Shown one piece after another: positions 40,810 through 57,199 of a stretch of 64,000 bases of DNA (its first letter is position 1; each line of letters begins with the position of its first letter). Location: assembly GCF_001428685.1 (NCBI RefSeq), contig NZ_LMIK01000009.1:153242-217241 (forward strand), given 5' to 3'. The DNA is from Lysobacter sp. Root76. Lineage in GTDB: Bacteria > Pseudomonadota > Gammaproteobacteria > Xanthomonadales > Xanthomonadaceae. The notes under the pieces were generated by a model, which saw only the letters and a program-made list of their open reading frames with translations, made no database searches and had not been told where the DNA came from. A program made the translations under genes and the position numbers.

Positions 40810-40829
40810 GACAGGTCTCCTTTCGCGAT

Positions 40830-40871
40830 GGGGCCGTCCCCGGGCGATTGGAGCGGCGGGGTCGTCCCCGC
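40830..40871 (-). promoter_or_regulatory. Guanidine-II (mini-ykkC) riboswitch
   Basis: On the minus strand two hairpins carry the diagnostic ACGR tetraloops: GCGGGG-ACGA-CCCCGC (40856-40871) and GGGG-ACGG-CCCC (40830-40841), joined by 14 nt. The second ends about 8 nt before the AAAGGAG ribosome site of gdx, so ligand binding would free translation, as known for this class. Confidence 0.93.
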
Positions 40872-40888
40872 TTCCTGATGCCCGTGGA

Positions 40889-54421: not shown

Positions 54422-54523
54422 CGGGGAATCTCCAAGCTGAGGGGGAACCGCTTTTCTTCAGATCCCCGGCCATGGATGGCCGGGCTCTTGTTCAAGGACG
54501 AACGACTGATAAACCCTGGAAAT

Positions 54524-54552
54524 GAAAAAGCCCGCGCTGGTCGGCGCGGGCT
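54524..54552 (-). terminator. Attenuator terminator before asnB
   Basis: On the minus strand a 9-bp stem AGCCCGCGC/GCGCGGGCT with a 6-nt loop is followed by TTTTT. It lies 30 nt after the stop of the Asn-rich leader peptide and about 100 nt before asnB. There is no other gene upstream for it to terminate. Confidence 0.8.
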
Positions 54553-54582
54553 TCGTGAGCGATTGAGCGTGTGTTGCGCGCG

Positions 54583-54702
54583 CTAATCGCCGGCCCGCGG
54601 GAGGCTGGCGTTATTGCGATTGTTATTGTTCGACGCAGCCACGGCCGCGCGGCCGCGCAGGGCGGCGCTGCGGATCGGGACGAGGGCGAAAGGACGGGAC
54701 AT
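54583..54702 (-). CDS. Asn-rich leader peptide of asnB
   Basis: A 39-codon ORF: MSRPFALVPIRSAALRG, then Arg/Ala-rich, then SNNNNRNNAS and a short end. Six of seven consecutive codons (25-31) are Asn codons, which is far from the composition expected here. AGGA lies 7 nt before the ATG. It is followed by a terminator hairpin and then asnB. This is the layout of ribosome-mediated attenuation: stalling at Asn codons under low Asn-tRNA would favour an antiterminator. The region 54422-54835 holds no other gene. Confidence 0.8.
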   Translation of the reverse strand: MSRPFALVPIRSAALRGRAAVAASNNNNRNNASLPRAGD

Positions 54703-54835: not shown

Positions 54836-57199
54836 ATGGCCAAATGGATCAAGCGCGGCCTGCTCGCGCTGGGGGTGGTGGCGTTGCTCGCGGTCGCGGG
54901 CGCCTGGTGGCTGCTGCGCGGCAGTCTGCCGCAGCTGGACGGCGAACTGAGCCTGCAAGGCCTGTCGGCGCCGGTGACCGTGCAACGCGACGCCCAGGGC
55001 GTGGTCACCATCGACGCCGCCAGCGAAGCCGACGCGATCCGCGCGCTGGGCTACATACACGCCCAGGAACGCTACTTCGAGATGGACCTGCTGCGCCGCA
55101 CCGCGGCCGGCGAGCTGTCGGCGCTGTTCGGGCCGATCGCGGTCGAAGTCGACCAGCGCCGGCGCATGCACCGGCTGCGCGCGCGCACCGAACAACACCT
55201 GGACAGCTTCGCCGGCGAGCAGCGCCCACTGCTGCAGGCCTACACCGACGGCGTCAACGACGGCCTCGCCGCGCTGCGCGCCCGGCCCTGGCCCTACCTG
55301 CTGCTGGGCACCGAACCGGCGCGCTGGCAGTTGGCCGACTCGGCCCTGGTCGGCTACGCGATGTACTTCGACCTGCAGGACGCCGACAACCTGCGCGAAC
55401 GCGCCTTGTGGAAGCTGCGCCCGGCCCTGCCCGCGAGCCTGTACGCCTTGCTGACCCACGACGGCAGCACCTGGGACGCGCCGCTGTTCGGCAACGCCCG
55501 CGGCGACGCCCAGCTGCCCGACGCGGCCACCCTGAACCTGCGCGCCCTGCCCGCACCCGGCAACGAAACCCTGACCGAAGCGCCGCGCCGCAACGAGGTC
55601 GGCAGCAACAACTTCGCCATCGCCGGCACGCGCACGCGCGACGGCCGCGCCATCGTCGCCGACGACATGCACCTGGGCCTGCGCGCACCCAACCTGTGGT
55701 TCCGCGCGCGCCTGCGCTACGCCGACCCGCGCGTGCCCGGCGGCCGCATCGACGCCGGCGGCTTCACCCTGCCCGGCCTGCCGGCGCTGGTGGTCGGCAG
55801 CAACGGCCGCATCGCCTGGGGCTTCACCAACAGCTATGGCGATTGGCTGGATTGGGCGATCGCGCCCGGTTGCGCCGGCGCCGCGCCCAAGGCCTGCGCC
55901 GGACTGCGCACGTATGAGGAGCGCATCGAGGTCAAGGGCGAGGCCGCACGCGTGCTGCGCGTGCGCGAGACCGCCTGGGGCCCGCTGATGCACGACAACG
56001 CCGACGGCAGCGCGCTCGCGCTGCGCTGGTCGGCGCACCTGCCCGGCGGGCTCAACCTGGGCCTGGCGAAACTGGTGCGCGCGCAATCGCTGGACGAAGC
56101 CATGCGCGACGCCCAGAGCGTGGCGATGCCGGTGCAGAACCTGGTGGTCGGCGATCGCACAGGCCGGATCGGCTGGCGCCTGCTCGGCCCGATCCCGCAG
56201 CGCGCGCCGGCCTGCACCGGCGCGGTGCCGCTGGCCGCCGACGCGGCCGCTGCCTGCCCGCCGTGGGGCGTGCGCACCGATGTCGCGCCGCAACTGCTCG
56301 ACCCGCCCGGCGGACGCCTCTGGACCGCGAACTCGCGCACCCTGGAACGCGCGGAGCTGGCGCGCATCGGCGACGGCGGCCTGGTGCTGGGCGCGCGCGC
56401 GCAGCAGATCCGCAACGACCTGATGTCCAAGCAGCGTCTCGACGAACGCGACCTGCTGCGCATCCAACTCGACGACCGCGCGATCTTCCTCGCGCGCTGG
56501 TGGACCCTGCTGCGCGACCAGGCGGCACGCTCGAAGAATTCGCCGGCGCTGACCGAACTGGCGGCCGCAGCCGCGCATTGGGAAGGCCGGGCGGTGCCGG
56601 AATCGGTGAGCTACCGGCTGGTGCGCTCCTGGCGCCTGGCCGTGCACGACCGTCTGATCGACGGCCTGACTGCGCCGGCACGGGCGCGGCAGGGCCGCGA
56701 TTTCGAGATGCCGGAACTGCCGCAGTTCGAAGGCGTGGCCTGGCCGCTGGTCACGCAGCGGCCGCCGCACCTGCTGCCGCGCCGCTATCCGAGCTGGGAG
56801 GCGCTGTTCGAGGACGCCGCACGCCAGGTTCGCGACGATCTCGCCAAACAGGGGCCGCTGAGCGAGCGGCGCTGGGGCGAACGCAATACCGCCGCGATCT
56901 GCCACCCGCTGTCGCGGGCGCTGCCCGACTTCGCCAAGCCGGTGCTGTGCATGCCCGCGGACGAACTGCCCGGCGACGTCGCCATGCCGCGCGTGCAGCG
57001 CAAGGATTTCGGCGCCTCCGAGCGCATGGTGGTCGCGCCCGGACACGAGGCCGAGGGCATCATCCATATGCCCGGCGGCCAGAGCGGCCACCCGCTGTCG
57101 CCGTACTGGGGCGCGGGCCACGACGATTGGGTGCAGGGCCGGGCGTCGCCGTTCCTGCCCGGGGCGACGCGCTATACGTTGAAGTTCAAGCCGCGCTGA
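54836..57199 (+). CDS. Penicillin acylase family protein (possible AHL acylase)
   Basis: An Ntn-hydrolase that cleaves amide-linked acyl groups. The 787-aa precursor has an N-terminal membrane helix or uncleaved signal (LLALGVVALLAVAGAWWLL), the alpha chain (GYIHAQERYFEMDLLRR), a spacer, and the autocatalytic junction with the nucleophile Ser in EVGSNNFAIAG (about residue 260). The beta chain has DDMHLGLRAPNLWFRARL and ends near GGQSGHPLSPYW. Substrates could be N-acyl homoserine lactones or beta-lactams. Its last 18 codons are duplicated downstream. Confidence 0.88.
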   Translation: MAKWIKRGLLALGVVALLAVAGAWWLLRGSLPQLDGELSLQGLSAPVTVQRDAQGVVTIDAASEADAIRALGYIHAQERYFEMDLLRRTAAGELSALFGPIAVEVDQRRRMHRLRARTEQHLDSFAGEQRPLLQAYTDGVNDGLAALRARPWPYLLLGTEPARWQLADSALVGYAMYFDLQDADNLRERALWKLRPALPASLYALLTHDGSTWDAPLFGNARGDAQLPDAATLNLRALPAPGNETLTEAPRRNEVGSNNFAIAGTRTRDGRAIVADDMHLGLRAPNLWFRARLRYADPRVPGGRIDAGGFTLPGLPALVVGSNGRIAWGFTNSYGDWLDWAIAPGCAGAAPKACAGLRTYEERIEVKGEAARVLRVRETAWGPLMHDNADGSALALRWSAHLPGGLNLGLAKLVRAQSLDEAMRDAQSVAMPVQNLVVGDRTGRIGWRLLGPIPQRAPACTGAVPLAADAAAACPPWGVRTDVAPQLLDPPGGRLWTANSRTLERAELARIGDGGLVLGARAQQIRNDLMSKQRLDERDLLRIQLDDRAIFLARWWTLLRDQAARSKNSPALTELAAAAAHWEGRAVPESVSYRLVRSWRLAVHDRLIDGLTAPARARQGRDFEMPELPQFEGVAWPLVTQRPPHLLPRRYPSWEALFEDAARQVRDDLAKQGPLSERRWGERNTAAICHPLSRALPDFAKPVLCMPADELPGDVAMPRVQRKDFGASERMVVAPGHEAEGIIHMPGGQSGHPLSPYWGAGHDDWVQGRASPFLPGATRYTLKFKPR

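Follow-up and report, generated by a model that had tools for sequence, protein, structure and literature searches.

The classical attenuators of Proteobacteria are the his, thr, leu, ilv, trp and phe leaders, and a comparative study on attenuation was reportedly made by Vitreschak et al. in 2004. In such systems a leader ORF with tandem codons for the regulated amino acid precedes an intrinsic terminator and a competing antiterminator, and the target is a biosynthesis gene. Asparagine genes are also controlled by T-box riboswitches for tRNA-Asn, which sense the charging of tRNA-Asn. T-boxes work through direct binding of the tRNA, without translation of an ORF. Leaderless leader peptides have been described in two other groups. 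According to sections of PMC7298713, the trpL leader RNA of Sinorhizobium (S.) meliloti begins with the ATG of the leader peptide and is part of a terminator attenuator, and a trans action is reported there for the RNA as well as for the peptide. The leuL, trpL1, ilvL, metL and thrL leader peptides of Streptomyces lividans are likewise leaderless, according to sections of PMC8079986. The whole word Asn is absent from the text of PMC8079986, and the main text of PMC2965389 contains no word beginning with asparagin. No asparagine-specific attenuator was found in an open-access library, judged by titles and abstract openings, and an earlier prediction elsewhere is possible.

The locus analysed here lies on the minus strand of a 64,000-nt stretch of DNA from Lysobacter sp. 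Root76, referred to as the window. A leader ORF, an intrinsic terminator and asnB follow one another in that order (Table 1). Comparison of sequences, which supplies the parts, their conservation, their frame, the alternative pairings and the wiring of the enzymes, makes it highly probable that asnB is under an asparagine-specific, ribosome-mediated transcription attenuator. The leader ORF encodes the 39-residue peptide MSRPFALVPIRSAALRGRAAVAASNNNNRNNASLPRAGD. It alone, among the 564 window ORFs of at least 20 amino acids, has at least 5 Asn in 7 codons. The terminator hairpin reads GAAGCCCGCGC-CGACCA-GCGCGGGCTTTTT, and 105 nt separate the terminator from the ATG of asnB. The asnB product scored 845.6 bits against NF006949 (cut-off 499) and also matched PF00733. 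The original prediction had placed a 39-codon ORF with six Asn in seven codons ahead of a GC-rich hairpin, a T tract and asnB, and all of these were found where it had put them. The divergent neighbor of the asnB upstream region is a penicillin-amidase-family gene (54836-57199, plus strand; PF01804), which sits between dapE (58902-57625, minus strand) and asnB. Because this divergent gene intervenes, the leader terminator cannot end a dapE transcript in the window. In one relative (L013) asnB comes after a dapE-like end.

Table 1. Features of the asnB leader and its predicted target in the window
Feature	Position	Strand	Basis or remark
Predicted -35 element TTGCAA of leader promoter	54737-54732	-	17-nt spacer to -10
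Predicted -10 element CAGGAT	54714-54709	-	Ends 6 nt before leader ATG
Leader peptide ORF, 39 codons	54702-54583	-	ORF translation; predicted leaderless
Putative regulatory codons NNNNRNN, Asn in 6/7	54630-54610	-	Near end of leader ORF
Antiterminator strand (region 2) GCGGGC, pairs with 54551-54546	54598-54593	-	In last codons of leader ORF
Possible stop-straddling hairpin (54590-54581 with 54569-54559)	54590-54559	-	Suggestive only; register varies by clade
Intrinsic terminator hairpin (5' arm 54554-54544, loop 54543-54538, 3' arm 54537-54527)	54554-54527	-	Rule-based search, covariation
U-tract of terminator	54529-54525	-	Sequence
Shine-Dalgarno GGAG of asnB	54433-54430	-	Sequence; SD-like 4-mers common before homologous asnB starts
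asnB, glutamine-hydrolysing asparagine synthetase B, predicted regulated gene	54421-52742	-	NF006949, PF00733

This arrangement would share with the classical attenuators the leader ORF with tandem codons for the regulated amino acid, the intrinsic terminator, the competing antiterminator and the biosynthesis gene as target. It differs from them in that the specificity is for asparagine and the target is asnB. Like the tRNA-Asn T-boxes, the asnB leader would sense the charging of tRNA-Asn and control an asparagine gene, but it would rely on a translated ORF, unlike those riboswitches. It resembles S. meliloti trpL in combining a predicted leaderless leader peptide with a terminator attenuator; the trpL leader is specific for tryptophan and belongs to an alphaproteobacterium, and its RNA and peptide reportedly act in trans (sections of PMC7298713). 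The S. lividans leaders share the codons of the regulated amino acid and the leaderless start, which is predicted here, but belong to Actinobacteria and to other amino acids (sections of PMC8079986). What would be new is therefore the asparagine specificity and the asnB target, combined with a predicted leaderless start, the mechanism itself being classical. A described RNA family was considered for the leader locus and rejected, since no Rfam family reached its gathering score there; the scores were 24.1 against 50 for Leu_leader and 19.6 against 55 for Thr_leader. No T-box matched the leader locus in Rfam either.

To examine conservation, asnB loci came from two sources: genomes of named species, where the best 80 of 591 confirmed stretches were taken, and genomes of the order, of which 299 were searched for asnB and 214 matched. 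179 of these 214 were used, namely all members of families f1 (73), which is the window's own family within the order, f12 (68) and f2 (3), and 35/70 of the other families. The 260 loci gave 248 distinct upstream regions, 178 of which had at least 3 Asn in 9 codons, and 167 were kept as leaders. L055, L057, L059 and L075 were excluded on account of a TTG start, and L045, L062, L067, L068, L080, L081 and L248 were excluded by hand. The 167 leaders were thus selected on Asn content; the following count starts from asnB instead. In 138/138 examined genomes with main-lineage asnB, an Asn-rich leader ORF lies upstream of the gene (71 f1, 64 f12, 3 f2). By family, leaders are present in 71/73 genomes of f1, 64/68 of f12 and 3/3 of f2, including L101, whose leader lies 470 nt upstream of asnB and was found by a wider scan. 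The 6 genomes of f1 and f12 that have no leader all carry a diverged asnB (64-67% identical). Together with the 35 genomes of other families, they bring the examined genomes of the order with diverged asnB to 41; one likely leader (L248) was found among them, and no Asn-rich leader was seen before the gene in the other 40/41. Among the best 80 of 591 named records, leaders were found in Lysobacter, Stenotrophomonas, Xanthomonas, Pseudoxanthomonas, Luteimonas, Thermomonas, Arenimonas, Rhodanobacter, Dyella and Fulvimonas. Because of these genera, f1 and f12 are probably Lysobacteraceae and Rhodanobacteraceae. The Asn run and the terminator are conserved in relatives, a check that could have overturned the attenuator reading and did not. 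With the leader present in 138/138 genomes and accompanied by a terminator and a competing strand, the comparative data support the original prediction of an Asn attenuator of asnB.

The 167 leaders encode 153 distinct peptides, in which Asn makes up 19.0% of 5729 residues. Some leaders have only 3 Asn codons. The distance from the start to the Asn run varies from 5 to 30 codons (21 different values), and the run is still in frame with the start that the promoter places. From this conservation of frame we infer that the leader is translated. A T-ending -10-like hexamer with a TTG hexamer 16-19 nt upstream of it is followed, at a distance of 5-8 nt, by an in-frame start in 167/167 leaders, where the best of several in-frame starts was used for each leader. 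The starts so placed are ATG in 164 leaders and GTG in 3. The spacer between the -35 and -10 elements is 17 or 18 nt in 166/167, and the gap from the -10 element to the start is 6 or 7 nt in 161/167. As a control, out-of-frame ATG and GTG codons of the same regions were given the same promoter test, which 31/1230 passed. In a fairer control, the other two frames had at least one such start in 14/167 and 6/167 leaders, with an average of 1.6 and 2.2 candidate starts per leader as against 3.7 in the leader frame.

Because the in-frame start sits just past a -10-like hexamer in every leader, the leader mRNA is predicted to be leaderless, most likely with transcription from A54702 or an adjacent base. 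A conserved Shine-Dalgarno sequence for the leader was rejected: SD-like 4-mers precede only 22/167 leaders, as against 160/167 asnB starts of the same set. The original prediction had given the ORF its own ribosome site. This part did not hold, as the AGGA before the ATG belongs to the -10-like CAGGAT.

The target gene asnB makes the amino acid whose codons fill the leader, and the rest of the genome was searched for other routes to asparagine and Asn-tRNA. The genome has one full-length asnB match; a second match reached 22 bits over 119 residues. asnA was not found in this genome by a search that finds it in 2/14 control genomes, and gatB was not found by a search that finds it in 12/14. 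asnS scored over its cut-off. Since AsnRS is present and GatB was not found in these searches, tRNA-Asn would be chargeable from free asparagine only. With new asparagine coming only from AsnB and charging only from free asparagine, a leader that reads Asn-tRNA would close the loop. AsnRS is present in 270/299 genomes of the order, so its presence alone does not predict a leader.

A covariance model was built from 67 leaders and searched in the 299 genomes of the order. Main-lineage asnB genomes accounted for each of the 137 places that it found at E ≤7.5e-9, and no genome had more than one of them; the best match in the 138th main-lineage genome (G238) had an E of 6.0e-7. As the model was trained on members of the set, this recall is partly circular, and the strict filters, which were also applied to the class sample below, lose weak matches. 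No strong second copy of the leader was found by the model in any of the 299 genomes. In a sample of the class (369 genomes, 5 of them of this order), nothing stronger than 5.6e-7 was found outside the order.

The nature of the signal was considered in the light of codon usage. Asn is encoded by AAU at 525/1091 positions in the leaders, as against 76/570 in 66 asnB genes of the same set. The excess of AAU may keep the Asn run unstructured or slow the ribosome there. tRNA-Asn carries queuosine, and it can be imagined that the leader is a general sensor of translation. Whatever slows the ribosome over the AAC and AAU codons, such as a loss of queuosine from tRNA-Asn, would then produce read-through, and the supply of asparagine would not be the principal signal. 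The AAU enrichment speaks for this explanation but could be accounted for by a need for an unstructured run. Although asnB is downstream by design of the search, a general sensor is at odds with the lack of a strong second copy elsewhere in the 299 genomes. Furthermore, other amino acids are less consistently clustered than Asn: at least 4 in 7 codons was found for N in 152/167 leaders, for A in 44 and for R in 7. We therefore regard a general sensor as very unlikely and asparagine supply as the probable main signal of the proposed attenuator.

By the rule used, a terminator had to have 6 or more consecutive pairs in its stem and a tail rich in T. Such a hairpin was found 19-36 nt past the leader stop in 165/167 leaders, and the remaining two were found by eye. 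Covariation was examined in an alignment of 67 diverse leaders that was built without structure. In the 7-pair core of the terminator, 469/469 cells pair and 50 are changed on both sides, a score that 0/500 shuffles reach.

Part of the terminator 3' arm recurs in the final codons of the leader ORF, which are therefore able to form a helix with the 5' arm. GCGGGC is the strand conserved for this pairing, in place of the segments ccggcg and gcgcgcgc that the original prediction had named for this role. Measured back from the last base of the stop codon, the antiterminator helix begins at 16-20 nt in 120/165 leaders and at 26-30 nt in 30/165. Its pairing energy averages -16.0 kcal/mol as against -11.1 kcal/mol in shuffles. 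The mean z is -2.41; it is below -2 in 107/165 leaders and not in 58/165, and in some Rhodanobacteraceae-type leaders (L210 and L218, for example) the pairing is at the level of shuffles. In the alignment, 89.3% of 402 antiterminator cells are paired, as against 26.6-48.5% when the strand is slid. Exchanges from G-C to A-U occur in two sequences and from C-G to U-A in ten. The cells changed on both sides number 12, as against 6.4 in shuffles (1/500). Two pairs of the helix are changed on both sides, which 25/500 shuffles equal, and the number of further pair types (4) is not above that of shuffles (500/500 reach 4). When arms were swapped among leaders, own arms paired better than swapped ones, and 0/5000 permutations of the 57 distinct arms were as good. 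By calculation, the antiterminator is mutually exclusive with the terminator and is masked by a ribosome at the stop codon, and it is weak in some leaders. A helix of at least 6 pairs that includes the stop codon was found in 62/165 leaders, as against 18/165 shuffled ones (mean z -1.40). Such a stop-straddling hairpin would extend the antiterminator; its register shifts across clades, and we treat it as suggestive. The fold of the window's entire leader is not unusual (z -1.13).

The promoter, ORF and terminator make a complete unit, and in the window 105 nt follow before asnB. It could be supposed that this unit is an independent small gene, producing a small mRNA or sRNA, and that asnB has a promoter of its own downstream of the terminator. 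In relatives the interval argues against such an arrangement, as the terminator ends 26-40 nt from asnB in 35/165 leaders, which suggests that little space is left there for a separate promoter. A promoter-like score of at least 8/12 was reached in the terminator-asnB interval in 3/165 cases, as against 38/165 before the leader. A competing antiterminator, moreover, would have no purpose in an independent gene, which we consider very unlikely. The possibility that the Asn run arose by chance, as low-complexity sequence within GC-rich DNA ahead of the gene, has nothing in its favor apart from the small size of the ORF and was rejected as next to impossible: when the region upstream of asnB was shuffled 5000 times with dinucleotides preserved, the maximum was 4 Asn in 7 codons (2/5000; none exceeded 4), and the leader is conserved in all main-lineage genomes with its many distinct peptides.

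The interval between terminator and asnB also contains a palindrome, CCCGGCCATCCATGGCCG (window 54484-54467, minus strand), whose 16-base core occurs twice in the genome. In Rhodanobacter (L018) three units similar to this palindrome are found at the equivalent place. These observations suggest that it is a mobile palindromic repeat.

A mechanism for the attenuator can be proposed from these parts. RNA polymerase would start on the A of the leader ATG or on a neighboring base, giving a leaderless mRNA for translation of the leader. When Asn-tRNA is sufficient, the ribosome would reach the stop codon and cover region 2; region 3 and region 4 would then pair, the terminator would form and asnB would be left untranscribed. 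When Asn-tRNA is scarce, the ribosome would stall on the Asn codons before it reaches region 2, which would then capture region 3 before region 4 exists, and the polymerase would continue into asnB. What we infer in this scheme is the site of transcription start, the capture by kinetics and a response to asparagine.

Ribosome positions were modeled with the edge of the ribosome placed 12 nt past the first base in the A site. In this model, region 2 stays free for stalls at 1032/1078 Asn codons. With the ribosome at the middle such codon and the 3' arm not yet made, the core of the 5' arm is paired upstream with a probability above 0.5 in 165/165 leaders. A ribosome at the stop codon gives the terminator a probability above 0.9 in 164/165. 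At full-length equilibrium with a stalled ribosome, upstream pairing exceeds 0.5 in 41/165 only, and in the window's own leader the terminator has a probability of 0.998. Since the terminator wins at equilibrium in most leaders, read-through would need the antiterminator to form first. That it does so is the customary assumption for attenuators.

If the proposed attenuator is real, asparagine joins the amino acids that are sensed by leader-peptide attenuation. It would provide a regulator of asparagine synthesis for many bacteria, among them Lysobacter, Stenotrophomonas, Xanthomonas, Rhodanobacter and Dyella. The 153 distinct leader peptides among the 167 homologues would be a natural library for leaderless translation coupled to transcription.

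Three loci outside the main lineage have Asn codons and a terminator 21-25 nt past the stop. In L248, from family f7, several Asn codons are clustered in a short ORF (NTINTTNN), a terminator lies 21 nt past the stop and asnB comes close behind; the covariance model matched its genome (G082) with an E of 2.8e-5 only. Its promoter-like elements are TTGACA and GATAGT, and GATAGT lies 25 nt before the ATG, so that by the test of promoter placement this leader would not be leaderless. L045, from a Lysobacterales MAG, has an asnB that is 71% identical. L055, on a 4.8-kb contig labelled Rubrivirga (positions 2000-2217), has NLTNANRN, a terminator with eight T and a strand complementary to it. These three are likely to be Asn attenuators before asnB, judging by their codons and terminators, and they offer leads for an older or a repeated origin. 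In the most extended reading, an asparagine attenuator on a leaderless mRNA, the first to be described, would be all but fixed in two large families, and the scattered lineages represented by L248, L045 and L055 would have the same device by older origin or convergence. Besides its cis role, the terminated RNA (~175 nt) and the Asn-rich peptide would build up under ample asparagine and affect other genes in trans, as is reported for the trp leader of S. meliloti. Taken jointly, this whole reading is unlikely.

L007, L017 and L034 have no leader before asnB. Their asnB genes are 75-85% identical to that of the window and lie on contigs whose labels (Holophagales, Deltaproteobacteria and Rhodococcus) fall outside the order, which suggests mis-binned contigs or transferred genes. 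Elsewhere in the window, a Guanidine-II riboswitch scored over its gathering score at 40829-40873 (minus strand). It lies directly upstream of a small membrane-protein ORF (40809-40492), which we take to resemble known guanidinium exporters.
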